From Ulva prolifera (lineage: Eukaryota > Chlorophyta > Ulvophyceae > Ulvales > Ulvaceae): 64,000 bases of DNA. The stretch is taken from the NCBI GenBank assembly GCA_023078555.1, contig CM041196.1, forward strand, positions 8,567,985 to 8,631,984, written 5' to 3'. Positions within the stretch are counted from its first letter, which is position 1; each line of letters begins with the position of its first letter. This document shows, piece after piece, positions 2,550 through 57,400 of this stretch. Made by a program: the position numbers and the translations under genes. The notes beneath the pieces were generated by a model. It searched no databases. It was given only the letters and a program-made list of their open reading frames with translations, and had not been told where the DNA came from.

Positions 2550-4401
<1,852 letters not shown>

Positions 4402-5322: not shown

Positions 5323-8300
5323 ATGCCTCATCTTTCGGCACGCGCGTGGTGTGCCTCTGATCACCGAAAATTGGACGTATTACTTTGCATCGACAGCACA
5401 GAAATGCCAGTTCTGGTTCTACAGGGAGCCTTGCTGCAAGACAGCGGACTCCATTTAAGCAAGGGAGTTGCTCGCAGCCTTGAAAAGTACCCCGACAAAT
5501 CCCGGTTGGACCGCCGGATCGTCTTGATTGCGGTCATGGACCGACATCTTCATGATGTCGAGGCCAGTGAACCGCCTGTGACCGCTGATGCTAGGCCGGA
5601 GCATGTGCTTGCGACCACAGCCATGCTGGCACAGCGCACAGGTGCTGCGGCTACTGAGACAAGCAACGGCGGAGCAATTCACGCCACGAGCCCACGCCTT
5701 GAAGCCTCGACACCCGCCTCGCAGTCGCAGACCACAGCTGCATCTCGTCAGCCTCATGAGGGCCGCACATGGGTCACCCAATGGACAGCCGGCAAGCACA
5801 GTCAGGCTCCGCTGAATGGCTTGCGGCAGGGTAGTGACGTTCCACGCAAACGAGATCCACAATCTTCTCGCGACGACAGCAGTAGCAACTCTAGCGAGTG
5901 GCTACAAAGTGCAAACGGAGTCGCTGCAAATGCTAGTAGCTTTTTACCGACCACATCGGAAGCCACATCAAGTTGTGATTTCGCCGCTGCTGATAGCCGG
6001 GCCACAATTTGCATGCATCCGGGCGCGCAGCGCGGTGCAGGGACGGCCGGGCATGATGCCTCCCATGCAGCTGCCGTCGCCAGCGCTGCCAGAGCACATG
6101 CTGAGGGGTCCGTTGGCAGCGCCGCAACAGCAGCTGCGCCCCCTCCAGCACCCGCCCAGGAGCCGCCGCCGCCGGCGGTGTCCAAGGAACCCCTGGGCCG
6201 CCCCACGGAACACACCAACGGCGCACCGACAGCCTCGAGTCCAGGGCCGCTACAGGAAGCAGCTAGCTGCAGCTCTGGACCTCTTATACACCACAATGGT
6301 GACGGCGGAGCGGCTGCGCCTAGCATTCATGAAGCCACAGAGGAGGCGGGCCGCGGACCGGACGTGCTGGCAGCGGCATGCATGCCGTTTGAGGACCCAC
6401 GGGACCGCGGCTGGTACTGCTGCGACCTGTTTGCCGCTGGCGGCGGCAGCGTGCCGGGGCTGCAGTTTGCGTCCACCCCTGCTGGCACAGTTCGTACGTT
6501 TGGCACAGCCGACGAGGCGAGCATCGCGCTGCAGGCCCTCCAAGGTGTGCAACTTGGCACCCCACCTGCATGCTTAGCGGACGTGGGTCCGCACACCCCC
6601 CCCACCCTGGACAGCCCCTGTCTGGACCGCACCACACCATCAGCTGGTTCCGCAACCCATGTGGCTGGGACGTGGCTGCGTACGGTTGTCGCGCTGAGGC
6701 CGGGCAGCCATCGCACACCATGTGCAGGGCGAAGCTTGCTCAACGTACGGCTGCCCGGCTCGTCCGCGTTTTCATACACGCTGCCGTCGCTCCACGAGCC
6801 GGAGCGCGAGTGGCTCCGCGGGCTGGAGGCGCGGCTGCATGCGACGCGCTATGATGCCGGCAGCTGCGTGCCAGTGTACTGGGACACGGAGTCCACCGGC
6901 CTCGGGTCCGTGCTGTGGTGGACCCCCCAGCGGCACCGCGTCGTACAGATCGCGGCGACCGCTGCCGGCGCCGAGTTCAAGATCGACATCAACCCCTACC
7001 CCGTCGCGATGTCGGGTGGTGCTGCTGAGACCACCGGCATGAGCACCGCCGCCGTCTGGGCACACACTGTCCCCCCTCAGGTGCGCGGCCGTCCACACGA
7101 TGCCCTGTTGGTGCCGGGGTGCGGGGGGGGGGGGGGGGGGGGGGGGTAGTTGGCTTGCTCTGCTATGCAGTGGTCTCAGCTCATGTCATTTGATCTCTTC
7201 GTCACACTGGGGCTGGCGCTGCAGATTGGGCTGGCGCAGTTTCTGGAGTTCTGCCTGAAGGCGTCAGAGGCGAACGGCGGCGCCGTGCCGGTGCTTGTCG
7301 CGCACAACAGCAACTTTGACAACGGCATGCTGCTGGGGGACTGCTGGCAGAGCGGCCTGCACGTGCCGCCGCAGTGGCGCTCGCTGTGCACCTTCCGCAT
7401 GGCCAAGCGCCTCGCACAGGCGTGCCCGCAGCTCGCCGCGCTGCCGACGCTCAGCCTCGGGCCGCTCGCGCGCCACTTCGGGTGCGCTCCGGTGCCTGCT
7501 CTTCCCACCTGCATGCATGCAGCCGCGGGCTGGAGCGTGACGCTCGTGCGGGGCGGAGTGCAGGTCGACAGTCGCCACGGCAGATCTGCATGACGCGCTG
7601 GAGGACGCCCGGCAGCTGCCGATCATCGCCGCTGGCCTGCACCGCGTCGGAGGCGACGATTGGTCCATCGAGTCGCTCGCGGGGTCGCCCCTCCCGGCCA
7701 CCCCCGATGCCAAGACCACCAAGCCGCTTGTGGACTCGTTCGCAAACATCGCCGCGGCGCGGCATATGTCCATGTTGCGCAAGATCGGCGTTGCAGCGCC
7801 CAAGCCACGACAGCCTCCTGCGAGCGCGGCGGCCGCGGCGCCGCCGCCGCCGCCCAAGGCGACAGGCAAGGCACGCAACCGCACGGTGGAGCTGTCGCAG
7901 GCTGCGCATCTGGCCGTGCTGTCTGACGACGACGCCGCCAGCACGGCGCCGAGGGAGAGCACAGCATCCGTGCCCGACACCCCTGCCACACACTCTGACC
8001 CGGACTCGACCGCGGCCGGCAGCGTCTCGTCAGAGAGGAGTAGCCGCCGCCCGAGGGCGCTGGAGGAGATGCTTCTGGCACAGCGCACCACGATGGAGCC
8101 TGACCCGTTCCTGACTGTCACGTGCGCATCTCCTTCCCGCAGCGCCGCCCGGGCGTCCCGCTGCTCGCCGGCTGCGTGAACCCTGATTGCACAAGCATGC
8201 GGGCATGCGCCGATGGCGACCGGGGACCGCGTGTGCAGGCCCGGCGACATCTCTGACGAGGACAAGCTGCTGGGCGCTGATGTCATTGGCACGGCGGACC

Positions 8301-11300
8301 TCGCCGACGCATGGCCCCCGTTCACTGCACCCCTATCTGCCGCCGGCCTGCCTCGCAACACCTTCCGTGCCCCGTTGCTCTCCAAGCTCGAGGATGCCGG
8401 ATTCTCGTCCGTCCTTGATGTGCGCCCTGCTTCACCACCTACGTGCACTTCTGCGTGAGCCTGCCACGTGGACAACTCCACGGCTGCGGGCCCGTGCTGA
8501 CGGCGAGAGGTGCTGTGCAGCTGCTCCGGCACACGCCGCGGCTGGAGCGGCGGCTACACCCGTCAGTGCACGTGGAGGAAGTCACCGACAAGGTCACCGC
8601 GCGGGGCACCGTGCTCTCCGTGGGTAACCCCGCCCGCCGGCCACGCTGCGCGTTCCTCACCTTCCAGGTCATGGTGCGCCTCTTGCCGTCGCTGCTCTGC
8701 GGCGCGCCCCCAGCATCGCCGCGGAGCGTGCGCCTCAGTCGGCATGCGTGAAGCCCGAATCCTGAGGTTCAGGGTTCAGACACCGCGCGCGTGAGGTTCT
8801 GGGCGTTAGCATCCGATCTCAGGTGTTGATGTGTGTGGTGCGTCTGCCCTCTGAGTGGGTGCTCTGCCATCAGATGGCCCATGAGCAGGTCCCCAGCAGG
8901 GCTGCTCACGGCTGAGTGTGTGCTTGCAGCTGGACCTGCTGGCGGACGATGGCACGCTGCTGGCAAAGGAGTTTGAGTCATGCATCTTCACCGGCAGCTC
9001 GGCCAAGGGCACCTACAAGCTTGAGCGCGACGCGGAGCGCCTCCGAGTGCGGCCCCCCTCCCCTGCCTGCCTGCTGACACAGCTCTGCCCTGAGCAGCAG
9101 CAGCAGCAGCAGCAGCAGCCCTGAGCAGTGGCATGGCCGGAGGGTCTGCACGTCAAAGCACCTCAGCAGGGCAGATTCGTGCTGGTGCGAAGGCGCACAT
9201 GGCAGCCGTGCGGCTGTTCTGTGAGTGTGTATGTGTGACGCGGGTGCGGCTGCAGGCTGCGGTGCGCCAGGATGCGGAGGTGGTGCTGGTGGGGCGCTTC
9301 AAGCCCAAGGGTGACGACCGCCACACGTTTCATGTGCGCCCTGCCCCCCCTGGTGTTCCCATGCTGGCCTAGATGTGGCGGCGGCACGTGGTCGCGGCCG
9401 CTCCGCCCATGCCCGGCGACGTCATGCAGCGGCGCCATGTGTTGCTGCTGTTTGGGGGCCGCCTGTAAGGGCCTGCCCCAGCCCCTGCTCGTGTCAACTC
9501 CTCCTCCCTGAACGCAAGCTCGGCCTGTACTCCTGCTGGCGAGACGCTGGCCGGTGTCCATCGCTCATGCCAGTGGGCGCAGCCTGACGCTCTGCCTCAC
9601 AGCGCCGGCGGCATGCAGGTGTCGGACTTCAACCTCATCGACCCCAACACCGCGCCGGTCGTCCCGGGTAGCGACGAGCCGGACCCTGAGGGTGCCAACG
9701 AAGACGCCCTCGCCGTCTACCCCCAGAGGTACATCCTATGAAATCGCTATGTCACTGCTGCATCACGCCAGCAGTGCATCCCATTCACACCCGGACCTGC
9801 TACATGGTACCGGGTAGGCTGTCATGGCGAGCGCACCGTGTTGCGCCTCTGCCGATCCCAGCGGAGCAATGTCAAGCCGGTGCGGTGCAGGCGCGAGGTG
9901 AAGGACTCGGACTTTGCGCGCATCATGCCGAAGCTGGTTGCGCACCTGCAGCGCGTGGACTACAGCGCGCAGAGCACCGACCCCACCGTGCCCCCCGCCG
10001 ACTTCCTGCCGCAGCCGCTGCTGGACGAGCACGACCTCATGCCGTGGCTGGAGGCGCTCGCGGTGGTGCATGCGGAGCTGGGCACACCGCTGCCGGCGGG
10101 CGCGCGCACGCGGGCGCGCCGCCGCCTCGTCTTCAACGAGGCCGTGCTGCTGTCCATCATGATGCTGCACCACCGCGTCGCGCTGCAGAGCGCCGAGCAC
10201 GCCGTCGCGGAGGCCCCCGTCGTCTGCGACAACCAGGTGCGGCCCGCCTCACAGCCGCTACCGCCACCGTGCCCTACACATCTGGTGGCGCAGAGCGGCC
10301 TGGGCCTACGGCAATCGATGCCCGCCTCTCGTGCTCTCCAGTCGGCCACCACCCCATGACGGGCCCTTGGGAGGCCGGTCACAGTGGCGGCCGCGGCGGT
10401 CCAAGAGCGCTGCGGCAGCAGTCGCTCGCGTGTCTTGAGTGCGGGGCTCGGCCCGGCCGCAGGACGCACGCATGCATGCATGCATGCGGGCCAGGTGACA
10501 CCCTGCGGTGCCGGCACCCCAACGTCGCACGCGTGCAGGAGCTGAGTGCGAGCGCGGTGGCGGCGCTGCCGTACGAGCTCACGGCGGCGCAGCAGCGGTG
10601 CGTCGCGGAGATCCTGCGGGACCTCGCGCAGCCGGTGCCGATGCTGCGCCTGCTGCAGGGCGACGTCGGCAGCGGCAAGACGGCCGTCGCGTTCATCGCC
10701 GCGCTCGCAGCCGTCGCCAGCGGCTACCAGGTCGCCGTGCTCGTGCCGAACGAGGTGCTGGCTGCGCAGCATGAGCGCTTCATCGCTGCGGCCGCGGCGC
10801 GTATGCCGCCAGAGCACCGCCCCGTCGTGGAGGTCCTCGCGGGCAAGGTCGGCGCCAAGTGCGCCCCGCAATGCTGTCCCGCACCACCGTCTGACCGCGC
10901 ATCCCCATGCATGCCGTACAGCAGATGTCAGCCTCTCCGGCTGCTGCTGGCTGCCAGCTGTTTGAGCGGCGCCCACAGCAGAGGGGTACTGGGTCATCAT
11001 CACACCATGAGCCTCTGCTGCACCCCGCATCGGCTGGCCCTGCTGTGTAAGACTGCCACGAAAGCATATCAACCTCGCGAAACCAGAGCAGGGTGTACAT
11101 AGCCGGGCATCAATATGTGCTCCAGCTGGTCGTCCACAGCCATCGTACCTGAGCCTCCGACCTTGCGCTCTCTGCGGCGCTGTGCTGACCTCCGTGCTGT
11201 GTGCCCTCCACCCTGGTCACCGGCCGTGTGGTGGTGCAGGCGGCGGCGCAGCCTGCGGGAGCGGCTGGCGGCAGGCGACGTCGACGTCGTGATCGGCACG

Positions 11301-12818
11301 ACCGCCCTGAACAACGACGAGGAGCTCTTTTCGAGCCTCGGCCTCGTTATCATTGACGAGCAGCACCGCTTCGGCGTGCGGCAGCGCGCGCAGCTCGTGA
11401 AGAAGGCCCCCGACGCGCCGCCCCCGCACGTCCTCTTCATGACGGCCACGCCCATCCCCCGCACCATCGCGATGACCCTCATGAGCCACATGAGCACCTC
11501 CGTCATCGATGAGCTGCCCCCGGGCCGCCTCCCTGTGAAGTGCGCGCCCCCCCACATCACACATACCTGCAGTATACCTCCAAGAGGCCGCCAGCCGATC
11601 GCACTGACAAGTGCCGAATGCATGTGGTTGTCAGGTGTGTCTGCCCCCTTTGTCATGCATGCGGCCATGTGTGACGGCAATTGGCGATGCTGCAGAACGA
11701 CGCTGGTGCGGGTGCCCCCTGGAAGCGAGGTGACGGCGCGGGGGCGGCAGAAGGTGCTGCAGGCGATCGAGGACGAGCTGGCTGCCGGCGGCTCGGTCTT
11801 CTGGGTGTTCCCGCTGGTGCACGAGTCGGAGCACTTCCAGGACATGACGTCCGCACACCTGGTGCGCCGTCTGTGTATGTGCTATCGACGGCAATGTGGG
11901 AGCGCGAGCGGCTGTGCAAAGATCTTCTGGATGCATCGGGAAGCTCCGGAGGTCCCACCGAGTACAGTCGCGTCCGCAGGCAGCAGGCCCGGAAGGCGCT
12001 GCACGTGCGCATGATTGCCTTAAGATCGTGCCCGCGGCGCCGCGGCACCAGCTTACCGCGCAACCCGCGCCACAGAGCGCGTCGGCGCATGCATGCAGGC
12101 GTACGAGCAGATCCGGGAGGCCGGGGGCCAGCTGGCCGAGCACGCGATGGTGATGACCGGCCAGATGGCGGGCGAGTCCAAGGCGACGGTGCTGGAGGTC
12201 TTTCGCAGCGGCCGCTGCCGGCTGCTGCTCAGCACAGTCGTCATCGAGGTCGGCATCGACGTCCCCGACGCCACGCTGATGGTCGTCGAGCACGCGGAGC
12301 GCTTCGGCCTTCTGCAGCTGCACCAGCTGCGCGGCCGCGTCGGCCGCAGCGACCGACCGAGCGCCTGCATGCTTGTGACGACCTCCAAGGGGCCCAAGGA
12401 GCGGCTGCAGGTCCTCACGGTGCGCCAGGCCCCCCCTGCTGTGCGCTGAGGCCCATGCTGTGGCTGCGACGCAGAGCGGCGCTGCGCTACTCGGCACATG
12501 AGTGAACCCATGCATCGTGTGCAGGAGACGTCGGCGGGGCAGGCGGTGGCACTGGCAGACCTGCGGCTGCGCGGCGCAGGCCAGATCTTCGGGCAGCGGC
12601 AGTCGGGCCCGGCAGATATGGGCCTCGGCGGGCTGCTCAAGGCGACGGACCTAGCGGCCGACGAGCAGGCGGTGGAGGACGCGCGGCGCGCTGCGGCCGC
12701 ACTCATCCGCGAGCACGGCTTCCGCCGCCTGCCGCGGCCGCTGCTCGCCGCGCTGTCCGGCTACAACATGACGTCGCTGTTGGCGCTGAAGATGCAGGAT
12801 GTGGACATCCACATGTGA
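5323..12818 (+). CDS. Fusion of DEDDh 3'-5' exonuclease and RecG-type DNA helicase
   Basis: Fourteen exons keep one frame to a stop, about 1650 residues: 5323-7080, 7225-7481, 7564-8121, 8239-8419, 8521-8667, 8930-9046, 9256-9333, 9619-9728, 9891-10236, 10539-10858, 11240-11539, 11696-11861, 12099-12419, 12525-12818. Residues 1-510 are Ala/Pro/Ser-rich and look disordered. The exonuclease has motif I DTE (D521, E523), motif II NSNFD (D618) and motif III HDALED (H681, D686), a full DEDDh set. After a low-complexity linker comes RecG: wedge-like OB region, Walker A GDVGSGKT (about 1225), DEQH box (about 1330), [31 protein letters not shown], and the TRG-like end [18 protein letters not shown]. 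RecG remodels stalled forks and branched DNA; plant RECG1 is organellar. The start is uncertain: the frame is open a few codons upstream, and an upstream exon with a targeting peptide is possible. Eleven of 13 donors are GTGCG. Confidence 0.85.
7123..7146 (+). repeat. Poly-G run in intron 1 of the exonuclease-RecG gene
   Basis: A run of about two dozen G, broken only near its start, lies about 40 bases after the donor at 7081 and about 80 bases before the acceptor at 7224. If unspliced, translation would enter a glycine run and stop at once. Such runs are length-unstable and hard to sequence, so the exact count is unreliable. Confidence 0.9.
9093..9120 (+). repeat. CAG trinucleotide microsatellite in a RecG intron
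   Basis: Eight or nine CAG units follow a GAG and are followed by CCTGAGCAG. The run sits in the intron between exons 8930-9046 and 9256-9333, so it is not translated in the proposed model. Each unit ends in AG and could act as a decoy 3' splice site. Confidence 0.85.
10468..10489. repeat. CATG/GCAT short tandem repeat
   Basis: Tandem tetranucleotide GCAT units (cgcatgcatgcatgcatgcg) lie in the RecG intron between exons 9891-10236 and 10539-10858. The same word recurs singly before several 3' splice sites in the window. Confidence 0.8.
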
Positions 12819-14704
12819 TGCGCGGCGTGGTGCAGGGGTGAGCGCAAGGGCGCCCGCCCCAGTGGTAAATGGCATTATGCATTTTATTGAGAGTGATACA
12901 TGGGCCTAGGCTTTCGGATTGCAGTTGTGGACTATTTCCCACCTTTGACTGTTCCTGTGTGGTTACATGTAAGCACCGTGGGCGCAGCTGCTTTGTGAGG
13001 TCTGTCGCAGCAGGGCACATCTCCCTGTACCACAATATCAGCCCCCGCACTTCATGGTCGAGGTGTATGGCATGGCCAGTGCGAAGAGAGGCACTCCCAC
13101 CTCTACCGGCGTCTGCATCACACTGTGCACTTAGCTTGCCAGCTCACACATGACCTCGGCGATGCGTGATCCAGTGCGGTGCACATTGGAGTGCTTGTTA
13201 TTGTTCACTTGCGAGCTGTGTTGCGCATATAGTGTGGTTGGCAGCAACTGCGCATGAACGGGGCGATGTGTGATGGTGTCTGTTGACTCTTGCGCAGTTG
13301 CCACACATCTGCCATTCATCTGCAAATGTGGTATCGAAGCATGGCAGATGTTGAAGACCACAGACCAATTCGAACATGCAGTGCTTCGATGCTGTGACCA
13401 TTCGCCAGGTATATTGATCAGGGAAGGGATGACAAGGGCCGTGTATAGGGACCGTGCAACCTGAAGCTGTCCCACTCGACATTGGACTCACATGCACACA
13501 AATGCATACTCTGCCCTTGTCATGAGGCTTTCGGACAGCTGTCTAGTGATACAAGCTAGAACCGGACGCCTTGTAACCATGCTTCCTGAGGTGCTGTGGC
13601 AGATGACATCAGATGCGCATCATTTAGTGAAAGGGCAGGAGCCCCTCTTAGTCTGCAGCATGAACAATGTTCATGCTCTGTGCTGGACACAGTAAGAGCT
13701 TCTGTTTGTGTCTTGCAGTAGGAAGTGTGTGGTACTCTTGTCTGGGTCAGCTATTCACCACAGGGAGCACACTGGCAGTTGATGCACAATGGGAGCACAG
13801 TGCATCCCATGGCAACCATTGCCCATGCGCATCAATGCAGCCAATGTCAAGCATTTGGGAGTGCCACAGGGCTGATGCAAGTTCGATGTGGGGATACTAG
13901 GTTACAGTCCCTACCCGCACTCTCGCCATAAAACAACTAGCCGATGGTGAGGCTGGGCCAAATGTCATCTCGAAGCTGTGCCTCCTTCACACCAGCAATC
14001 AAGATCCTTGCAGAATGATGAAACCAACTCATTTTGGAGTCGCACTGGGATGAAGCCCTGCATTGTCACTTTGTGCACCCCTCACTGCACAATGATGGAT
14101 ACAACTAGTTCCCAAGCCACAGTCTGGGCAAATTTGAAGTTGGATACATCGAGCGTGAGTCGTAGGCACCGCCCTTGCGTTTCACAGAACTGAAGCAATC
14201 CGCTGAGGATGAAGTGAACCTGGTTCCATCACGTTTGCTACATACTCAGCGAAATGGTTTAGCCCTCACATTCATGTGATGGAGCACATGCACGCAGGGG
14301 CTTAAGGCATCATGTAGCACCGGCGAGATTCGTGAAAGAACAAAACATGTGTGGATAAAGCGGCCCGAAACTGCAGACCCACTCCTCCAGTCCAGTTTGT
14401 TCAACTACTGATCATGTTGCTCGGTCGACGCCGAAGTGAAACACCTGCGCAGCGACCTGTGCAGTATGTTATGTGTTGCAAAAGCCATGAGTGACGTAAC
14501 TTTCACACACCTATCCACATGTCACGTCCAGGTTGCACTAAGCGTAAGACTCCCTTGCTATCGCTGATCATCTCAACCTCTGGCACGCTGTCGGCCCTGA
14601 TGCTAGCTTTGACAGCATCCTCAAGGATCTGGCTCCACGAACATGCAATCCTCCCAGTTCACCACCATGGGACATAAAAAATTGAGGTTTATCCGTTGAG
14701 CAAA
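12819..14704. other. Gene-free interval, about 1.9 kb
   Basis: Two convergent genes end here (RecG on plus, TFIIS on minus), so both 3' untranslated regions are expected. The sequence is markedly less GC-rich than the RecG exons. Small open frames on both strands have no signatures or good splice sites. I see no terminal inverted repeats or transposase-like reading frame. Confidence 0.5.
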
Positions 14705-17758: not shown

Positions 17759-20363
17759 CTAAAGCAGGAAAAAAAGATCGTACACTAGTGGCGTTTGAGC
17801 GGCAAGATCCCCCGCCGCTGACACTGCCTCAGAGTTAGGTGCAGCCATGGGTGGCAGTATGGGTGGGATCTGACTACATGCACCAAAGACTGAGGGAGGT
17901 GCTCCAGATGCAGTGGGGGCGGTTGCTGGGCGCTCTGAGGGTGCCGGGGTCATGGCGCGAGTATCACGCGCTCGTTCCATAGCTGCCACTGCCCGCGATC
18001 CTGGCACTTTGGTCTGCTTTGCTGCCGCATCGCGTGGGGGCTTGCCGGTGGCAGCCTTTTTTCTGTCCGCTGGCTGAACATGCAACCACGCATTGACAGT
18101 CAATCTCAAAAGACGACAACATGGCTGTGCGGTAGACGACAGAGTGACATGGAAGCACATCACAGCTACATACCTTTTTTGGCTTCACTTCGGCCATGGT
18201 TCGGAGCTCTGTCTCAACCACATCAAGCACCTCAGAGCGGTAGTCGACTCGGCCCATGACAAAGCGCTCGCCTTTCGAAGATTGCCATTCGTCCAGCATC
18301 CCCTGCAGCTTCACAATGGCTTTTGGGAGTTTTTTCTTCTTCTCTTCCGCTTTGATCACACGCTGCAGGAGCCGGTTTGCATCTCTTCCCTGCACATATT
18401 TGCTTGATTACAGGGCACTGTATGCGCATGTGTGCGTGCCACGATAAATGTAGAATCAATCGTGTCTAGAAAGAGGCAAGGCGCAGCAAGTCAAAACGCT
18501 GAACCTGGAGCGCACCCGGTTGTTGAACAAATTGTCCTGCTGGTGCTGATGGTGCCAAACAGCTTCTTTGAAGCATTCTTCTACCTCAAAAATGGCCCGC
18601 ATGATGGGATCACGCTGCTCTACCAGCACAGTGAATTGGGCAAGCATGTTGACAAGCTTTGAAAGGACTTCAGCCACTTGCCCTGGGGACTCCAACTCAT
18701 CCAGCAGTATGCTCAAACTGGGCATGGGAAGGACAGTTGTCTCGCACAGGCGAGCCATTTCAGCTACTTTGCTGTGGATCATGCTACGCATCGCCTTGGC
18801 TTGCTCAGCCTCAAGTCGGCCAATCTCCTCATTGCACTGTACAAAAAAGGGTGCACTTACACAGATGCGACAGAAAAGTGGATGCGCCCAGTGAACACCA
18901 TACTCTTGTAAATTGCAAGTTCAGTGGTACAGAGTATGAAAACGCCTGACTGCTACTGGAGAGCAGTACTGCAGAACGGCAGAGGCCTTGAGGAGCGTAG
19001 GGAACGCACTTTCTCCAGCGTGTGCGCATGCAAACGAGCAGGGGCAGCAATCATCTTCTGGAAGAACGAACGACTGTCATCATCTTCTGAGATATCCAGA
19101 AGACGCCACATATTCCGGAGTACTTCATGCATGTCTGCAAGTCGAGCCTCTCTTTCCTCTTTCATGGTCGACAACTCATCCAGCCTTGCCTCTAGGCCGC
19201 GGAATATATCTTCACTCAACGCAATCTGTTCCCGTGTCTCTGTCTCTGCAGTCGGCTTCTGGGTAGAAAAGCCAAAGTAGTGGCCGCGCATGGACTGGTG
19301 GTAATTACGCAAGGACGGGTGAACACTTGCAGCCATTTCAGCATCATCAGCTCCCAGCTCAATGCACATCTTTCGGAGTTTTGCCAACGTGGCCTCCATC
19401 TTGCGCTCACGGCGAACCTACACAGATCGATTCAGATGCAGCAAGATCTGAGCACTACATGTGTCCCGAAAGCAGCACTGGGATGCAAAATGGCTGGTGC
19501 GTGTGATTCAACAATCCCTGTGGCACTGCACCTTCTCACCGCGCATGCGCTCCAGCTCAACTTTGAGAAAGTCCATATTTGCTTTCGTTATGCTGTTCTT
19601 CACTTTCTTTGTGCACACTATGGTCATGCCCATTGACTCTCGGATCTCATTGATGCGGCTTTGAATTGTATCAAACTCGCTGATACGAGATTCCCGCTTG
19701 CGCTTCCATGTTTCTAGCTCTCCAACAACTTCGTCAAACTGGCGTTTAAGGGTCTTGCCAGGGCTGATCACCAACGAGCCCTGCACGGTACAGAAACTAA
19801 CAATGAAGGACAGCCACCATGAAGTGATCACGCACTCAGCAGCGCCATGAACCAGATTAAAAGCGTCAATGAAGTATCACCATGGATATGCTGGGATCCT
19901 CTAGCGCGGTGAGTTCACCCAGTTGCTCTGCGATAGTCTTCATCTCAGCAGCAGCAACATCGATCCTGCCACGAATGCCGTGTCGATGCTGTTCAGCATG
20001 TTCAACAGCACCATTCCAGACTCCCATTGCTTTTTGCGTGATATCTTGAAGCGTCTGCTCTTGCGCTACGTCGGACATTTCAAGATCTTTCCAAATTTCC
20101 TGCAGAACGCACGCAGCTCTCGTCCGCAATTCTGGATTGAGCATAACCTGACAGATCAAGAATTGGGAATTTCGTGCTATGATCTACGTCAGCATGGGAT
20201 GGTTGCCTGATGATACTGCATTGTGCGACCTTGGGCCCAGCAGTATCACTGCCATGCAAAGCACCTGTAGCTTCTTGTAGCACGACTTCGTCACTTTTGA
20301 ATATTCGTCAATATTGACAACATCTTTGGACTCTGTTGGGTAGATGGAGACGTCTTCGGTCAT
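17759..20363 (-). CDS. MAP65/PRC1/Ase1 microtubule-bundling protein
   Basis: Seven exons keep frame: 20363-20265, 20099-19881, 19780-19532, 19417-19010, 18836-18516, 18389-18174 and 18073-17759, giving 608 residues. MAP65/PRC1 proteins cross-link antiparallel microtubules in the spindle midzone and cytokinetic array. The chain is helical and charged throughout, as expected for a spectrin-like rod. Family stretches include EIWKDLEM near the start, GELETWKRKRESRISEF, KLRKMCIELGADD, LARLADMHEVLRNMWRLLD-like text and CNEEIGRLEAEQAKAMRSMI. The spectrin/microtubule-binding part follows, with ECFKEAVW and GRDANRLLQRVIKAEEKKKK. The last exon is a basic Pro/Ala/Ser-rich tail (PADRKKAATGKPP), a usual site of mitotic control. 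The first Met in the frame (MTEDVSIYP) was taken; the frame is open upstream but has no earlier ATG. Length matches plant MAP65s. Confidence 0.9.
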
Positions 20364-29897: not shown

Positions 29898-32800
29898 TCA
29901 GAGCTGCCCGGGGCATCGCACCTGTCTCACCAGCTCTGTTCTGAAGCGCTCCCACCTCAAATGCCTACACAGACAAAGACACAGCAGTCCATGATTGCCA
30001 TTTGTCATACAATGACATCTGGTCACAGATCGCAGAAGCAGAGCTGAGGCCTTTGATGTCTGGCAACACATGTAGGAGCATATCCCGCGTCGGTCTGTTC
30101 AAAAGGGCAAGCTAAGTTCGTGAATGAACTTGAGTGCAAGGTGCTGGTCCTGCCACGGATAATGTTGATGCACATGGCTGTGCTCGCTGGAAAGTGGCTG
30201 GAGAAGGTGCACTCCTGAGCACGATGAGACACACCATGATGACCGACATCCCCACTTGCACGTGTGTATCAGGTCTGTAAATGTGGGTGTGAAGCACACA
30301 CGACCATTGCAGCTGCACGTGGCTACGCTCGAATAACAGGTAGCAGAGTGTTCAGATGTACAGGCCTAGGTGCGCCGACCATCATAGGGAATCAGCTAGG
30401 CAGTGGTCGAAACTTGGCCGCCTCAACATAGAGGGGCGTTTGCCCCCGAGCTGGTGTGTGGAACAGCCTACCTTTGGATGTGGAGTCAGCGCTAAAAATG
30501 GTGAGATCAGAGGATCAACCCACAGGTTTCGTCTTTTCTATGTACGCAGGTCTATGCTACAGTAGCATCGACTAGCAACCGCGAAGAGCTCTCGCCCCGT
30601 AGTCACCACCCTCAGGTGTCAGCACACAATGGTGCTGAGAGTTTGTGGCCTGACAAGCAGGAGGCCAGTACAAATACACAGCCATCTGTATCATGGCCAG
30701 TCATGTATGCAATCATAGTCACCACTGAAGAGGACATGGTGCGCAAGGCGCCTTGGACTCACCTGTAAAACTGCTCTTTCAAGCGCTCTTCTTGTATGTC
30801 GCCAACAACTGAGTACTTTGTGAAGCCTGAGAGGTCCTCCGGCCGCACCATCTTCAGTACATCCCACTTGTGCAGGACAAGCACCGAAGCTGTTGTGCTT
30901 GCAATCACACTGGTGGTGCACTTGGGGACCTTACTGAGACACTGCTCTCCAAAAAACTCCCCGTGGCCAGCCGTTGCTATCTGCGGCAGACAGAAGATTT
31001 CACAGTGCAGCGTGACATTGATTCCAGGCGGAGACAACTGTATCTGTCTTCGAATGTTGGCCCTGGCAAGGTTCTGGTGCAGATTGTGGGCTTGTATACG
31101 GCAGGGTAACAGCTAGGATTTTGATCATGCCTGACAGTAGGAGCAGCGTCCGCTGGACAGCTGGACAGCATGGCGGCACCAGCACCGAAATATCATGAAC
31201 TTCTGACGTAGACTGAAGCATTCAATGTACGCACCTCCAGGAAGAGCCGGTCACCGACCTCGCAGCGTGTGGCATGCTGGAACGCTTTGGCCAGGTCAGT
31301 TGTCATGTGAGACGTTTGATTCTCCGTCACAGCTCGGTCCAGCACCATGAAGAACCCACTCTTCCTGGACTGTTCGATCTTGGTCACAGCTCGTTGCAAC
31401 TACAGACGCACATGCACTGTTTCATGCGTGCGCCGATGGCAACCCAGCCTTGCCACAGTCACATTCCAAGTTGCATGATCACAGACCAACCCCAATATGT
31501 GACAAAATCAGAGAGCTACAGATTGGGGCTAAAGCATGCCTTGGCATGGGCGCTGGCAACCAGGCGCCTGCGCTCTGCTGCACTTCTCAGCTTTTGGGGG
31601 TCCTGTTTAATGTACGTGCGGACGGGGCTGGCCACATGAGCGAATCTTGCTGACACAGCAGCCTGACGCTTGAACGGATCATCTTGCGGCATGAATTCAT
31701 CGGGGTCAAAAACTTCCGAGCGCCTTGGGAGCTCCCTACATAGAGGTCCAGTTTTGCATGCACCAATCAACTCCAACGCTGCGGACCCCTGAGCCTTGAA
31801 GACCAGGATGATCTTGTTTCCAACAGTTGCTGGATCCTGATGCATCGATGTTGCCAGGACAGACGTGTATCCAAACCAGCTTACTTGCATCCACTGTACC
31901 ACACATGTGACCCATGCATCAGACCATATGCAGGGCTGGGCCACTGGCTCTGCAGCTCACCGTATCAACTTCACATGCCCTTTCTGAAGTATGTAAACAT
32001 CTTCAACCTCCTGATCTTGCTGCAAAATCACTGAATTGGGCAGAAACTCCCGTGGCATACAAACAAGCGTCAAAGCACGTAGTGTGGACTCCGGCAAATG
32101 TTGAAACACCGCCATCTTCTGTAACAGATTCATCTTGTCAAGATTGGCTTGTCCATTCTGGTCCTTGATGAATCTGCAGCATCTATCACGCAGTGTGGCC
32201 TTCATAACACCACCGACATTCTACATTGATAGCGGCCAGGATGACATATGGGCGATGCATCTGTGAACGCACTATCTGCTCCTGTAACATATCAGTCTCG
32301 TTCAAGAGGTCGCCAGCAACAGAAGGGATGCCATTGTCAGCACTGTGAGCAAATGGCACGCACTGTTCGTACGCTGTTTGATGCAAGACTGCAAAAGCAG
32401 TGTCCTCGCGGCACTGACATGAGGCTCTTCTTATTGATTTGGGCTCCATTAGCGCAAGATCACCGAACGATCCTCCCGGCCCGAGCACTGCTATCTGTGA
32501 CTCCGTGCCTGTGGTCGGATCTTGCACGAGCACACTCACACTGCCTTTGAGAATGATGAAAAATTCACGACCTTCTTCACCCTGGGTTATGGCGTTGACT
32601 CCCAACTCCAATTTACGATACCCCAGGTGCTGCAAATCTGAGGTTGTCAGACCAGCAGCATTGCAGCATCGCGTCGCTGCTGCTAGGCAGGTGGCAGGGT
32701 CAACACAAGCTATGGCGCACAGACAATTAAAGAAGACTCCAGCATGTGCAACAAAAGACGTAACATATGGAAGCATAAGGTGGTATGAAGATATGACATG

Positions 32801-33351
32801 CATGCCGCAGAGCACTGTGCAGAGTGGCACACAACACATAACCATATGCGCAGCCTCACCTGTGCAATTCCAGACAAGGCATCCGGTGGAAGCTCTTGTA
32901 GCAGCTTCACCTTTAATAGCATCTTCTGCAGCGCCTGAATGTCCTCCGGACTCCTGTGCTGTGGTCTGCGTGGAAGGGGCGCAATCAGTCGACGGTTGCT
33001 AGCGTTCAGACACTGTCTGCATGATACGTGAAGGAATTTTCTCACCTCTTCTGTAGCGCAGTCTCCTCGATCCCGTAGAGAGCCCCGAAAGGCACCTCAG
33101 GATCAAGGCTGTCCACTGTGTCGCAAACTGCTTCGGCATGGGCGGACAAAGGCTGGCGGAAGTCATCGTTATTCGCCTACGTAGCAACTTTGACGTGAAA
33201 TTAGCGTTCGCCCATTCTCGCGATGATCACAGCTGTGATAGCAGAACGATACCTCTGGTTCTCCGGAGCCGTTCGCTGGAGATTTTCCTTCCAGCTTATT
33301 GCTAAGCTCTCCACGAGGGCTGAGACCAATTGTAAGTAGTGTTGGGGCCAT
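29898..33351 (-). CDS. Soluble protein with two cyclic-nucleotide-binding (CNB) domains
   Basis: Clear exons: 33351-33253, 33176-33046, 32965-32860, 32629-32364, 32173-31961, 31399-31235, 31037-30763 and 29964-29898 (stop). An exon around 31510-31840 (frame containing VGNKIILVFKAQG) is certain in content, but its edges are unresolved. CNB1 has HLGYRKLELG, GREFFIILKGSVSV and a phosphate-binding cassette GGSFGDLALMEPKSIRRAS with the expected Arg-Ala. CNB2 begins LLQKMAVFQHLPESTLRAL and EVEDVYILQKGHVKL. It is then interrupted by about 160 residues before GHGEFFGEQCLSKVP and IASTTASVLVL. Its cassette lacks the Arg (KCTTSV), so binding at site 2 is doubtful. The end RHLRWERFRTELVRQ resembles tails of CNBD2-type proteins. 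There are no membrane segments and no kinase domain. I infer a cyclic-nucleotide sensor or scaffold, perhaps ciliary; the nearest relatives are uncertain. Confidence 0.75.
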
Positions 33352-47075: not shown

Positions 47076-49496
47076 TTATGGCTCTACATCTGCCAGTGAT
47101 CTCATTTGTTTTGCATCTGCTACAAACACTGCAGCTGCAGCATTGTTCCCAGTACCCTGCGCAATGCCTGCTGCAATCATATACAACCTTTCTGCCTCAA
47201 TGAATTCCTTCATGTGTGCAACGCAAGTGGCCATCCTACCCACACATTTCATGATCACCGGTGCAACCTCAGGAAGGCACAACTTGTCAGAGAGCAGTTC
47301 AAGAACGTTTTCAACCGATCCCTGTGGAAGTGTGCTTGTCTCTGCAGCACATGTGAAGGCAGCTTGGCATGCCTCAAAAGCCTTGTCAAACTGATGCATA
47401 CATAACTTGCACATAGCCTTGTTAGAAAGTGCAGTTGCAAGCTTGACTGGATCTTCTTTGTGTATCGTTTCCAGAGCACTGAAAGCATCGGCAGCAGCAC
47501 CATACTGACCTGATTCGAACCGTGCATGCGCACGCTTCTGTATACTGATGGCACACTGCACCCCTCCAGGGCCATTCAACTCAGCACACAGGCTTAGCAG
47601 CTGCTTGTTCATTGGATCCAGTTTGAGTGCGCTGTGGCAGTCTTCGCGGGCCTGTTGCATGATCCCTGCAGGAACACAAGTCGCTGACATCCTGCTGCTT
47701 AGAAAACAGTCTACATGCGGACCACACTACAGCTCAGCACATGACTCGAGGCAGCTCACCCTGCTGTGCATATGCAGCGCTGCGGCGTGTGAGTGCCTTA
47801 AGTTTCAAGGTTTTCCACTTTCCATTGTACACATCAGATCCCTCCACTGCAATGCCTTCTGCGGCGTGTATTGTACTCAGGACAAGCCCACAGTCTGAGA
47901 TGCACTCTGCAAGGCAATCTATGCGGCTGTAGCAAGCGGCACGATTCAACCTGCGTCAGCACAGATAGAGTGAATGCATCGTTGTAAGCGCGCAAGAGAG
48001 CATGTTGACCTGTACGATGGGTGCCTCAAGATAGTGGGCTTGTGTTTGCAGCACGAGCTGCTTTCCACAGCGTACCGGCATGTCAGGGACAATTCAGAAT
48101 CACTTTCTTCCCGCTCTAGAGCAGCACTATATGCATTTATAGCAGCATGGAAGTTCCGCTGCGAATGCAATGCATCTGCTTTGTCCTTCAAGAATGCTGG
48201 CTGCTTGTTAGCCATTTCTGCTGAATTTGACACTTGTGATGCATCCGCTTGAGCCTGCTTGTACAGCCGCAATTCTGCCTCCCGATTTTCCCGAGCGGGC
48301 AAATGCGGGAATTCGAGCTTTGTGAAATCGACCTACAGGCTTTGACGGCATGATGCTAGCTCGATGCAGGTACTTGCATCAGGTTGTCAACGTCAGTCAT
48401 GGGGCAGAGTTCAGTGGCCGATCCACCGCAAGAATTACCATCGATGATGATTTTTGTTTGTGTAGCGTCATAGAGGTGAAATGCATAGAGCACACCTCGA
48501 CCCGTTTAAGCATATCTCTAGGGGGCAGTGCGAACGGAATGCGACACATGGTAGATGCCAGAGCTTTGTCAAGTTCAGCGTCACTGCTTGATGTTTCATG
48601 CTCACGACCGCCAGATGGACCAACCATTCCATGCCCACAGCTTTGTGACGTTGACTGTTCCTGCCTGTGTTGCTGAGAGGTAGGATTCCGTTGAAACTCT
48701 TCTTTCTCCGTGCCTGGGTGGCCGACTGTCACAGATGTTTCGCTCTGCACCTGTTGCTTGTGAAGATCGAGCATGATGCTGCTCACTACAAACGACAGTA
48801 ATCCAATACGTACCGACTCGCTCTCTGCTTCCTCATTGTACGCTTGTTTGTTCAGGGCCAATTTCCACTGATTCAGGCGCTCAACTTCAGCATCCAATTC
48901 TGAAGCTTTTGCAGATTCTATTGTCTTCCTCTTGCGTTTGTCCACTTCGATCTGCCGATCGATGCACATTCTGCAAAGCAGATCATATAGAGTCGTTACA
49001 ACCATGCTTCACTTGAGTTCCTGAGCAGCTCACTTTTTCTCACGTGCCAAGCGCTCCACATGTCTTCTGCGGCGCTCCTCCGCGTCTGCGTGTGCAGCTT
49101 CAATGCTCAAATGCCGCCTTTCTTCAGAAGCAGCCTTGGATCCATTGTAAACCAGCGTACCCCATGTGCAAGGCTCTCTCTAGATAGACCAACCGACTCA
49201 GACGATCCCAGGCATGCCCAATTGGATCGCAGTAGTGAGATTATAGCAGTGAGTCTCAAGCAGCGTACCTTAGGCAACTTGAACACTATGTCTCCTGGTG
49301 TTGCATATGCTGCACCATTGTCCGAATCGATAGCAGCGTGAAGATCCAGCAGCAGTACATACGGATGAGCGACCACTTTCACAAGAACATCTGTGACAAA
49401 TATGTCAGGCTTTTGCCTTGTCAGGCCTGGTAACTTTACTCGTATGTCCACTTGATCGATTGTTTGTGACCAGCTATACGTTGGGGTCACAGGCAT
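47076..49496 (-). CDS. DNAAF4: Dynein axonemal assembly factor 4 (DYX1C1): CS domain plus TPRs
   Basis: Seven exons: 49496-49269, 49179-49034, 48970-48814, 48744-48496, 48332-48076, 47950-47760 and 47665-47076, giving 605 residues. DNAAF4 is a cytoplasmic HSP90 co-chaperone that preassembles ciliary dynein arms. The N-terminal CS/p23 domain spans residues 1-76 (MPVTPTYSWSQTIDQVDIRVKL, PDIFVTDVLVKVV, GDIVFKLPK). A WGTLVYNG segment follows, aligned with the W-E-x-L of the family, then charged helices (EERRRHVERLAREKK, SELDAEVERLNQWKLAL). The TPR part begins near residue 260: DFTKLEFPHLPARENREAEL, FLKDKADALHSQRNFHAAINAYS, LNRAACYSRIDCLAECISDC, AREDCHSALKLDP. After the usual end it continues for about 170 residues with two further TPR-like helices (RAHARFESGQYGAAADAF, AMCKLCMHQFDKAFEACQA), longer than the human protein. 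Its presence implies motile cilia at some life stage. The start ATG follows an in-frame non-ATG codon. Confidence 0.9.
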
Positions 49497-51811: not shown

Positions 51812-54454
51812 GGTCAGTGACATCGTTGTACGTCTGATACCAGCATGTGGCTCTTGTGACATCAAGAGTCTTGTGACATCTGTAAGCTATGGTGGCATCA
51901 TGATGCTGTTGCTCAGTTTGTATCCAAGGACAACATGATGTTGGCATGTCCAGATACGTGCTGCTTCCGGTGGATTGCCTGCCAGCTCGCATACATCAGC
52001 TTATCTATGGCACCCAACCGCTGTCTGGCCTGCCTCAATGCAGGTGGAAACGTCTCTGCGGAGCGTCACTCTTTGGGGAGCTAAAATTTCATGTCGCCGA
52101 GCAGTACACTGTCAGCGTGCTTTGATGGCAGGGGTCCAGCCGCTCAGCAGCCGTGCTTTCCAGAGGCACAGAGGGAGTCTTTGAGATGCATCCTGTAGTT
52201 TGTTTTTGGACTTCGGCACCCCAGTTCTGCCCAAGGGCTCCGCCGGAACTTCTGTGTTGCAAGTCCAGACCTCCAGACGCGTGCCGTCCTTCATACGACC
52301 ATACACGCGGCAGCACGTGCTGGATGAGGTGTGACTGAGGAGATCACACATGGTAAAATTCCTTATCGTACAACCAGCTCCCAGCAGTGCTGTTGGTGGA
52401 CATATGCCGCATCCATGCACAAATTCACATGGTGTGTCACACCGTGTGTGTAGTTGCTTGCATCTGAGACTGAGTAGCCAAACCACTGCACCTGGCGTCG
52501 CAAGCTGCATTGAACACACATGCACACACATCTATCGCGCATGGCCATTTAAGGGCTCAAAATATGCGGGCATTTTTGGAGATATAGACTGCAGCGGCTG
52601 CGCGTGCAACCGAGCTTCCTCTCATGATCAGGGAGGCATCTGTGGATCGACGCAGAATGTTAACACGTAGTAATTACTATCATTCTGATCGATGGAACCA
52701 CTCCGGTCCATATATTCTGCATGTTTTGAGACCCAGCTTCTCGGCCCTCCACTCTGGACCTGAGGGCTGGCCAGAGCCGGCTGGCCCTGCTTCATGGGGG
52801 CATCAACGCTGAAAATGAAGCAGCGGCCCTTGCAGGCTTTGCCCTTGCAATTGCTCAAGGGCATGCTTGAGGCTTAAGCGCATGCTTGAGGTGGGGTCAG
52901 CTACAACAGTTACTACGTGAGCACCAATACAGAAGGGAGCACATACCCTGCACATGCTTCTGCACATGTGATATCACATGGTGTGCAGCCTGTGGGAGGC
53001 CCTCCTGCTGTGCACGTTTGTAGGCACCATTGATCCTTGCGATGCATGTATGTGTCACCCTCACATGATACACATCCCGCAGTGATCTGCCTGCGTAGCG
53101 CAAGTTGTGAACCGAAGAATGATGTAAAGTGGTACTACCGCCCTGAAAATATTTAAAATCTTCAGCGCCCAATGGGGTGCCCTTCGCTAGGACCCGGCAG
53201 ACTTTCCTGTTCGGAAGGAGCCGACCGCATTATCTCGAGGCAGAGATGGGCACGGTCGTGTACGAACGAATCGCGACAGTCTGGATCTGGCCCACATGAT
53301 CATGACTGTCGACACGGCCACGCCACAACTCCCAACACAGCCGGCTGTTAGCGCTCTGTATAGATGAGCTGCTCGTTGCGCGTGCCGGATCGGTGGTGAT
53401 GAAGTTGTCGACAGTCCAACGTGCCGCACATCGATATTCTGTGGAGCTCGAGCCATGGAGGCCTGTTGCAAGGACAGCTAGGACACATCACAGCCACGTG
53501 TGGCTCATATGCGCTGGCGTGCACGTGCCTCCTCGTGCGGCGAATCAGAGGTCAGATCAGTTTGCATTGGCACACGTCCTGCACACGCTAACAGTGAAGA
53601 TGACAGACGGGGCACGGTGACAGAACTCTCGAGATATAGATTCAGCACTTGGACACCACTTACGCTGAAAGGGGCAAAGGGCACAGGGCAAGTCCAAGCC
53701 TTATATAGTCTTTGGCGTATGCAGCCTAACATCGCAGTTCAACCTTGATCATGACAACAACATTATCTATGTGGCTACAGCATGTCATAATACGCGTTAT
53801 CGTCTTGATCTTGTCATGCACGATGCAGCAGCATGCATGGTCGTCATCTCAGCGTCCAACACGCTGACCCTAAACCCCACACGTGGGGCCTCAGATATCC
53901 GCATCCATGGGCCTCTCCTTCGAAGGAGAGGCATTCATCTGTAAGCTGCTGAGCACATCCAGAACCTTTGTTCGCTGAAAATGCAGTCGCGACAGCGCTT
54001 GACGGAGTGAGATGCGCCAGGGATGGCGCTAGAGCTGTGGAAACATCCACGTCGACGTCGATCTCGAGATATGTGACCGCGCGCAGATCTAGGTCTATAG
54101 ACGATTCAATACACGTGCAGAGTGCAAAGTCCGATGCTGCCATGCGCTCGCACCGCAAGGCCTCATAGCACGTGCACATCTGACTATGGACGGCATGCTC
54201 GGAGTTCAGAGGCAGCAATAGCACTGCACCCAGTCGGCCGCGGCTTAGTGAGAGTGTGCAGTGCCATGTAGCCATATGCATTGCTGTCAAGGCACCGTCA
54301 CGACGATCCAAAGCCATGCCCTTTCGTGGATCCAGAAGAACGGAGGCAAACCCAGCGTGACTTATGTCTACACATGTAGTGCTTTGCCGGCTGGGATGGG
54401 CCTGTGAGCGTGGTGGAGCTAATCGGGTTGTGGCTGGACGCAGATACATCCGTC
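51812..54454. other. Interval of about 2.6 kb without a supported gene
   Basis: It includes a minus-strand segment at 52947-53090 that looks like an internal exon: tacgcag acceptor, an open frame (SLRDVYHVRVTHTCIARING onward), and a consensus donor (G|GTATGTG). Another open minus frame lies at 52112-52531 and a 201-codon one at 53844-54449. I could not chain them into a gene. No transposon signature was seen. Confidence 0.35.
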
Positions 54455-57400
54455 ATGGCGGTGGAAAGATGCCAGAGGAAGCCATTCAATTCGGAAATTT
54501 ATCCTGACACTTGCCTTCTGCTGTATGTCGACGATGACGTTGTAAACCAGCAAGTACTCGACATGCTCCTGTCGACGAAGTCGGAGTACCGAGTACTTCT
54601 AGCTTGCGACCAGCAAGAAGTTGAAGACGTTCTGCGAGATGAAGCTTGCCTGCCGGACGTGGTTTTTATGGACAACCAATTGGTTGATTGCACTGGTGTG
54701 CAGGTGCGTCCAAGGGCGTCCAAGGGCGATCAGCGTGCATGTCGCCACTGGCACCAGCTTAGTAGCAATTTAGTTGTATATTGTAGACTGGTGCTGCTGC
54801 AGCTGTCCATTCGCTGCCTCACGGCTGTGTTGCATGCCAAATAGTTGACACACAGCTCGCTGCGCCGGTGAACCACCTCGTCGTTTTCATCATCCGAGCG
54901 AGCATCATCGACAGAGGCGACTCTTTCCACTGATCGTGCGGGAGGGATGATTACAGGTGATAGCGTGGATGCGCCGACGCTACTCCGAAGATCTAGTGTT
55001 TGTGATGTGCACCGCCCTGTCACAGCTAGAAGCCACAAAACTTGCGGCCGTTGCTAGGGCGGAAGGCTATCTGTGCAAGCCATACACGATGAAAGATCTA
55101 TTGGACCTGCTGTCCAATCTGAGGTCGACTTGGCACTCCTGTGCACTGGGGTCGGTCCCAGTCGTTGGGGCAGTGGCTTTGGCCGATTCCAAAGCGCGTG
55201 CCCAAAGTCAGAATGACCTCAGGACAGCGCAAGGTGTGTTCGATGCGAGGCTCGCATTATTTTGCATATTCTGCAGCATGCTCTGTTTCTCCTGCCTGGC
55301 TTCAGAACAGGGCGCTGTGCAGCACTAGGTGGCCACTTGGTCAGCTGGAGTTGTTTCCGCTGCATTGCAGCTCCAAGTCATTATGGGGTCTAAGTAATTA
55401 TGGCTCTGCATTCGGCTGGGCGCCTGCAGTGGCATGTGTTAGCTTGCACTGGCTGATGTCGACAAGCAATTCGCTGTTGTTGCTACAGGCAAAGCATCTG
55501 GCAAAGCAGGCTCTGACTTTGGTGACGTGCCAGGCCCTGTCCCTACGGATGCAAGAAGCAGATTAGATCAAAGTGATGCTGTGCACCGGGCATACAAGCG
55601 GCTTCCCACAACAGGTCCGAGTCCCTCCAGTGCCCAGCCTGGCAGCGCTGGCGCCCAGGCGCGACCACGAGCATTGCGTCCACAATTTCGGCATCTGTTT
55701 TTAATGCAGTCCCCAGCTGCGCCTCCCTTGCAGCGTACTAAGGGAATAGGCAGCCAGCTTTCACCGTGCCGGGTGCCCCCCAACGCCGCTCCTGGCCTCT
55801 TGACAGTGCACCCCAGGTCTGGCAGAGCTATAGGAGTTCAGGGCCATCTGCCGTTGCGCTTGCCCGTGTTGCATCCAATGTGCCTAGTGCAGGTGACAGC
55901 GCATCAGCCAGTACAGGACTGAACTCGGCCACCCGGTCACTGGCCACATGGCTCCTGTCGCCCAAGCTACCTGCGACACAGGCTGTTCCACGCACACGCT
56001 GTGTGACGGAGGAGTGCCAGCAGGACCACCTGGCCAACGTCATGCACAAGAAGGCCAGTGCATCATGGCCGCTGTCAGTGGCGTCAAATTATTGTCTACC
56101 AAGCCCGACAGGAGGGCAATCGTGTGCACTGGCGAGCTCGGCATATCGTGATGGCTGTGCTTTGGCGCCTGGCAATGTATATCCGCGGGGCTGTTCTAGT
56201 GCGTCCGTAGCGCACAGGCAACCGTGGCTGGTCGGTTACGCTTCTGCACAGCTTCCGCCGTACGGCTCTTCGCTGAGGCCGGCAATGGGCGGAGGAGCAC
56301 ATGATGGTGTGTCTACATCTTCCTCTTCATCAGCAGCACATAGATGCTGCAGTGTGCATGCTGAGTGCCAGGCACATGCCACGACCAGTGCCATGCCCGT
56401 CGTCTTGTTGTCGATGGCTGATTCCGCATGCCATCCAGACATGTCATATCACATGTCCAGGTAGCATCCACACGAAGCAGGCACGCCATGTGTTGCGCCA
56501 CTGATCTGATGCGTGTGCATTATCTAGGGGGCATGCTTGCGCAGGACCCCGCTCGTGGCACAGTGAGTCTGGGCCATCGCGGCCTGGCGGACCACCAGAC
56601 ATCACAAGTGGGTTCAATGACAACCTTGAGGCCTTTGCAAGGCTGACGTCCAGAGACAACTGCTCAAAAACAAACTCTTTGAGTGAGCCCACTGTGCATG
56701 TCAGGTGGCCTGGCGCACAGGCCGCCGGTGCTGCCGCAGTGCGTTGCCCCCTCTGCTGTGTCCCTTTGTCTGACGGTGCCTTCACCGGTTGCAGTCATGC
56801 AAGCCCTGGCGCATGCAGGCCAACAGCGGCGCCCAGCCCTCGGGCAGTGCCTCTGGAGCCGGCCCCTCGCAGCGTGTCTTCATCACGGCTGCATGCGTCC
56901 CCGGTACGCTGGCGGCGGCTGACACGATACCCCCGCCCGGGTCTGCTAGCGTGCACCGTTCTGGCGCCAGCACAGATGCAGGGGGCAGCCAAGCAAGCGG
57001 AGCGCTCCAGGACGATGATTGCATTTCGTGTGTGAGGCCGCCTTTCATACCAGAGCCGCAGGAACTGCCTGGACGTTCGACATATCGCAACGTCGATGCT
57101 AGGGTGCCTGTTGCTGGCTGGGGCCCTGTGTGGGTCAGGCTGTCGCCTCAGAAGGATGGCAATGGTGGGATCGAGTACACCGTGGTTCTTGGGGAAGTCG
57201 GGGCCGGTGCAGAAGAGACGGCGGACACAGCTGAGAAGCTGCGCGCGGCGTGTGCGGCCACCCAAGAGGTCCTGGAGGCTGAGCTGTCCACCCTGAGTAT
57301 CGCCCCAGGTGAACTGGTGCGGTGCATGGTCGCAAGCGCCGCCTGATATGGTCGGGGCCAGTGACTGACGCCACGGTTGCTGTGCAGGAGGCTGCAGAGA

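Follow-up and report, generated by a model that had tools for sequence, protein, structure and literature searches.

Whether one gene can join a DEDDh-type 3'-5' exonuclease to a complete RecG helicase, and what the resulting protein would do, are the questions raised by a locus of the green alga Ulva prolifera. The locus (5323-12818, forward strand) lies in a window of 64,000 nucleotides, the whole stretch of DNA that was analyzed (C1:8567985-8631984 of assembly GCA_023078555.1), and all positions below refer to this window unless another contig or locus is named. An original prediction, made from the letters alone, had proposed such a fusion and had regarded a nuclease-bearing RecG as new. 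That interpretation was partly supported: sequence evidence supports the fusion and the identity of both domains, the RecG part is supported in its core and C-terminal end, with a putatively divergent wedge, and fusions of this kind are already in print. The gene very probably belongs to the DPD1-RecG type, consisting of a DPD1/TREX-like DEDDh 3'-5' exonuclease, a low-complexity linker, and RecG. The best overall explanation, to which a probability of roughly 60% was assigned, combines this identity with a role in organelle DNA maintenance.

The 14 exons join in phase, as the original prediction had held, yielding 4959 nucleotides that encode 1652 residues with a single, terminal stop codon (12816-12818). 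Exon 1 (5323-7080) is an open frame ending at the donor GTGCGC and contains an N-terminal extension and the start of the exonuclease (D521 and E523), followed by the middle part of this domain (D618) in exon 2 (7225-7481) and by its end (H681 and D686) together with a linker in exon 3 (7564-8121). Introns 1 (7081-7224) and 2 (7482-7563) both interrupt the exonuclease domain, and intron 3 (8122-8238) connects the exonuclease part with the RecG part. Exon 4 (8239-8419) comprises linker and the start of the RecG N-terminal segment, exons 5-9 (8521-8673, 8930-9046, 9256-9333, 9619-9728, and 9891-10236) the putative divergent wedge and RecG N-terminal part, and exons 10-14 (10539-10858, 11240-11539, 11696-11861, 12099-12419, and 12525-12818) the helicase core and C-terminal end. 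Donors read GTGCG in 12 of the 13 introns and GTACA in one, and acceptors read TGCAG in all 13, although these counts are partly by choice since splice signals, along with the frame and similarity to RecG, had guided where the exon edges were placed. Downstream of the stop codon, TGTAA (12968-12972), which we take to be a green-algal polyadenylation signal, is a weak candidate since the same letters occur in introns 7 and 10. Intron 1 contains an extended G tract (7119-7146) next to the first exonuclease exons.

The link between the two halves was found where it had been predicted. Exon 3 begins right before the HDALED motif, its third-position G+C stays high to the exon end, and its last codon (AC plus G) is completed by exon 4. 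With donors taken from 7900-8178, acceptors as far as 8300, and a minimum intron length of 60 bases, 48 GT-AG pairs were examined across the junction; 15 were in frame and open, and a single pair carried GTGCG/TGCAG, namely 8122/8239, which is in frame. No dip in G+C was seen at the junction, and TGTAA was not present in 8122-8521, the latter counting for little. Given these junction data and the published fusions, one chain is by far the likelier arrangement than two genes.

The exonuclease domain (6877-7615, forward strand; residues 519-689, across exons 1-3) matched Pfam RNase_T above the cut-off of 24, with 29.0 bits on the joined protein and 35.7 bits when the domain is scored by itself. 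All five predicted DEDDh catalytic residues (D521, E523, D618, H681, and D686) are kept, with a spacing of 2, 95, 63, and 5. This appears close to the spacing of 2, 92, 61, and 5 obtained for DPD1 of P. patens from the residues listed in the available text of PMC12292046. A PDB search with the domain returned five sequences at E <= 1: four were RNase T, the best at E 0.0074, and the fifth was unrelated. Searches of the alga's own genome (88,887,114 bases in 44 contigs) with the domain gave seven matches at E <= 1, three being the fusion gene itself and four weak (E 0.036 to 0.29), such that no close second copy of the exonuclease was found at this threshold. A genome scan with Pfam RNase_T yielded three other places and missed the fusion gene's own exons, and therefore undercounts. 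Two of the weak matches (E 0.036), loci L014 and L015 (G000 C3:9324617 and C4:5367696), share the same translation, a 235-residue open frame on two contigs, and may represent a recent duplication or a mobile element. Contig searches with the domain as query gave 14 pattern stretches and no relatives at E <= 1e-3 in viral contigs, and 90 stretches and no relatives in bacterial and archaeal contigs; a single-protein query of this kind picks up close relatives only, and distant ones would escape it.

The helicase motifs named in the original prediction were recovered in the joined protein, with GDVGSGKT (Walker A) at residue 1227, DEQH at 1332, and TATPIPRT at 1361, in addition to GRVGR at 1527. 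Pfam matches comprised DEAD (1201-1370, 74.9 bits) and Helicase_C (1461-1532, 49.4 bits), while RecG_dom3_C (1558-1617) reached 21.9 bits on the whole protein, below its cut-off of 26.8, and 28.1 bits on exon 14 alone. A 17-residue C-terminal stretch aligns with the end of the bacterial RecG profile. NCBIfam RecG models matched below their cut-offs (best model 544.2 bits, cut-off 718; TIGR00643 524.3 bits, cut-off 659.4), and the closest solved structures were RecG (9wm0, E 1.7e-93; 1gm5, E 3.5e-83). A RecG profile gave 16 matches in the own genome at E <= 0.01, of which four fall in the fusion gene, with the remaining 12 being weak matches to helicases (E no better than 1.3e-6); a second RecG was not found at this threshold. 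The RecG core recovered 389 stretches and 199 relatives from bacterial contigs, and the best 80 (best-segment identity 41-49%) were kept. Complete within their contig were 76 of these 80 frames, which had a median of 763.5 and a maximum of 1030 residues from stop to stop, and a match to the exonuclease domain (E up to 10) was seen in none of the 80, the best of 199.

Support for a complete RecG was less uniform. Pfam RecG_wedge was not matched in the own genome, in the joined protein (E 0.01), or in the RecG N-terminal part (E up to 10). A profile of the 80 bacterial frames aligned residues 907-1174 in register with 21.3 bits, starting at base 8384 in exon 4; of 500 shuffles, 299 were reported and scored no higher than 2.2. 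Exons 4-8 alone aligned weakly with the same profile (1.4 bits), where 282 of 500 shuffles were reported and scored no higher than -0.7. The RecG N-terminal region is thus read as a divergent wedge in exons 5-8. Exon 8239-8419 had been predicted to start the wedge; it does hold a RecG N-terminal segment (a 12-residue stretch running on as LLRHTP in the next exon), but the wedge proper appears to follow it.

The idea that such a protein is new did not survive comparison with the literature. DPD1-RecG fusions are described for the green algae Micromonas, Ostreococcus, Volvox, and Cymbomonas in the available text of a 2024 Plant Cell paper (PMC12292046), according to which they occur where MutS1 seems lost, Cymbomonas excepted. 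A 2025 review, in the portion available, repeats these fusions and describes their function as still to be explored (PMC12079397). RecG itself is reported from plants and green algae and from no eukaryote outside the plant kingdom, as far as the available text of PMC3542137 goes.

In the same genome, a mutS1 profile gave 26 matches at E <= 0.001, grouped into ten places, which we take from their motifs to be MSH2, MSH3, MSH4, MSH5, MSH6, MSH7, two MSH1-like genes, and two MutS2. Two of the ten were compared with solved structures. C6:7829920 came closest to human MSH6, scoring 153.3 bits against 120.5 for the top bacterial MutS. The exon at C3:11188301 was nearest, weakly, to bacterial MutS (39.4 bits), which speaks against an MSH1 label; a GIY-YIG-like stretch downstream (18.7 bits, below the cut-off of 22.6) speaks for it, and its motifs presumably fit that label as well. 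The two MSH1-like genes lie on contig C3, in loci L038 (5052-5327 and 5780-5935, reverse strand) and L039 (4281-4739, forward strand), and the GIY-YIG-like stretch was seen at L039:6022-6528. No cyanobacterial-like MutS1 was recognized among the ten places, an absence that rests on presumed motifs and not on a tree. Doubled MSH6, doubled MutS2, and MSH1 are given for Viridiplantae in the available text of PMC12292046; together with RecG, this set points to a green alga as the probable host.

An organelle role is plausible by analogy with published work on land-plant RECG and DPD1. The fusion protein would enter plastids and/or mitochondria, where the RecG part would bind branched DNA such as 3' flaps, D-loops, and stalled or fusing forks and drive branch migration, the tethered exonuclease meanwhile trimming the exposed 3' end; trimming and remodelling together would keep both ectopic recombination and over-replication in check in organelle DNA. 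This coupled mechanism, considered by itself, is about evenly balanced between holding and failing. In E. coli, the routes by which RecG and 3' exonucleases deal with 3' flaps overlap: RecG can convert them to 5' flaps, the exonucleases can cut them away directly, and RecG becomes necessary in cells that lack ExoI, ExoVII, and SbcCD (available text of PMC6393302). The exonuclease of DPD1-MutS1 has been suggested to act on exposed ends of invading strands (PMC12292046, in the part available). Organelle DNA substrates of these kinds would be well matched by one chain that carries both activities. A more specific and tentative extension, which we regard as possible though rather doubtful, is that the alga's only RecG and only DPD1-like exonuclease have merged into one motor-nuclease that would process organelle 3' flaps and D-loops in a single step. 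If true, the motor-nuclease would make permanent the overlap seen in E. coli and might account in part for how organelle MutS1 became dispensable. With no second copy found and separable active sites, the gene would permit a direct test of the coupling between remodelling and 3' trimming in organelle DNA maintenance.

Several points weigh against this explanation. Entry into organelles is predicted, and the model may be incorrect or truncated at the beginning of exon 1, which leaves the 5' end uncertain as a basis for judging targeting: third-position G+C is indistinct from that of the other frames from 5323 to about 6670 and consistently higher only from about 6670, a Pfam scan of exon 1 alone (E up to 1) gave no family, and the first 90 residues had a low mean predicted local distance difference test score (pLDDT) of 44.8 in a structure prediction made without an alignment and found nothing better than E 0.48 in a PDB search. 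The single transcript and single chain are inferred from DNA. The putatively divergent wedge is RecG's junction-binding part and is the weak point of a complete RecG. The substrates of RecG and of the 3' exonucleases seem partly different (PMC6393302, available text), and since RecG makes 5' flaps out of 3' flaps, it could be in competition with the exonuclease and not in cooperation. Finally, DPD1 is stated to be absent from mosses and green algae in the available text of PMC11164812; fused DPD1-like forms qualify that statement and fit the Plant Cell account better.

Among the alternatives, the one that survives best, although unlikely, is that the main task of the fused exonuclease is bulk degradation of organelle DNA, for nutrient recycling or uniparental inheritance, with RecG only delivering it. 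In Arabidopsis, DPD1 breaks down the DNA of plastids and mitochondria, and in tobacco it influences how plastids are inherited, yet the DPD1 of seed plants is described as a standalone protein (both from the available portion of PMC12079397). As a matter of argument, a permanent link to RecG would also leave the organelle genome open to degradation whenever RecG is made. Somewhat less probable is a service to mismatch correction, in which the exonuclease would chew back strands and so replace a lost DPD1-MutS1. The failure to recognize a cyanobacterial-like MutS1 among the MutS-family places agrees with such a substitution, as does the available text of PMC12292046, in which chew-back is considered for DPD1-MutS1 and DPD1-RecG is recorded from algae that seem to have lost MutS1. 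Set against it are the MSH1-like genes of the genome, one with the sub-threshold GIY-YIG-like stretch. Moreover, to our knowledge RecG has no mismatch-recognition domain. Less probable again is a single chain in which the exonuclease or the RecG part is inactive and the fusion is a relic or scaffold; the putatively divergent wedge speaks for it, either activity being predicted, but the protein retains all five catalytic residues of the exonuclease as well as the main motifs of the helicase. Very improbable are two adjacent genes, the exonuclease running through an unspliced intron 3 to TGA at 8177-8179 and RecG starting at an ATG such as the in-frame one at 8213, since, although the single transcript is known from DNA by inference, the intergenic gap would be just 33 bases, the sole GTGCG/TGCAG pair of the stretch links both frames, G+C shows no dip and TGTAA is missing at the junction, and other green algae have the fusion. 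A DPD1-RecG fusion predicted to act in organelles stays the preferred explanation.

Other genes were observed in the window. Upstream of the fusion gene on the opposite strand lies a KRR1-like gene (3491-4272, reverse strand) with both KH domains (100.4 and 103 bits). A Pfam scan for neighbors, which took in 10 frames, also matched MAP65/ASE1 (18956-19417, reverse strand), a cyclic-nucleotide binding domain (32189-32998, reverse strand), TPR repeats (47079-47726, reverse strand), and a response-regulator receiver (54380-54841, forward strand; 28.8 bits, just below the cut-off of 30.2). A RAP-domain protein is encoded at 58979-59767 on the reverse strand (34.1 bits, cut-off 24.2); RAP proteins often act on organelle RNA.

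The fusion can be compared with several known systems. WRN combines an exonuclease and a RecQ helicase in one chain and so likewise joins a 3'-5' exonuclease to a branched-DNA helicase, but both its exonuclease subfamily and its helicase family differ from those of the window protein, making this an analogy only. Land-plant RECG and bacterial RecG share the RecG helicase core and C-terminal end with the window protein, in contrast to which the bacterial form was without the exonuclease in 80 of the 80 frames examined; we know of no nuclease in land-plant RECG. Seed-plant DPD1 (AT5G26940) is also a DEDDh exonuclease, the window spacing being near that listed for P. patens DPD1, but it is a standalone protein and not fused (available portion of PMC12079397). 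The DPD1-MutS1 protein known from non-seed plants and from some green algae likewise pairs an N-terminal DPD1 exonuclease, with the same five residues, with a DNA-binding partner, that partner being MutS1 where the window gene has RecG (PMC12292046, in the part available). Closest are the green-algal DPD1-RecG proteins of the same source, which, compared by description, share a DPD1-like DEDDh exonuclease and RecG in one protein and genomes mostly seemingly without MutS1, while the host species, the exon structure, and the long N-terminal extension are the window's own. Judged by its sequence, the Ulva prolifera window adds one member to this already reported fusion type, and with it a genome that has the fusion and among whose MutS-family places MutS1 was not recognized.

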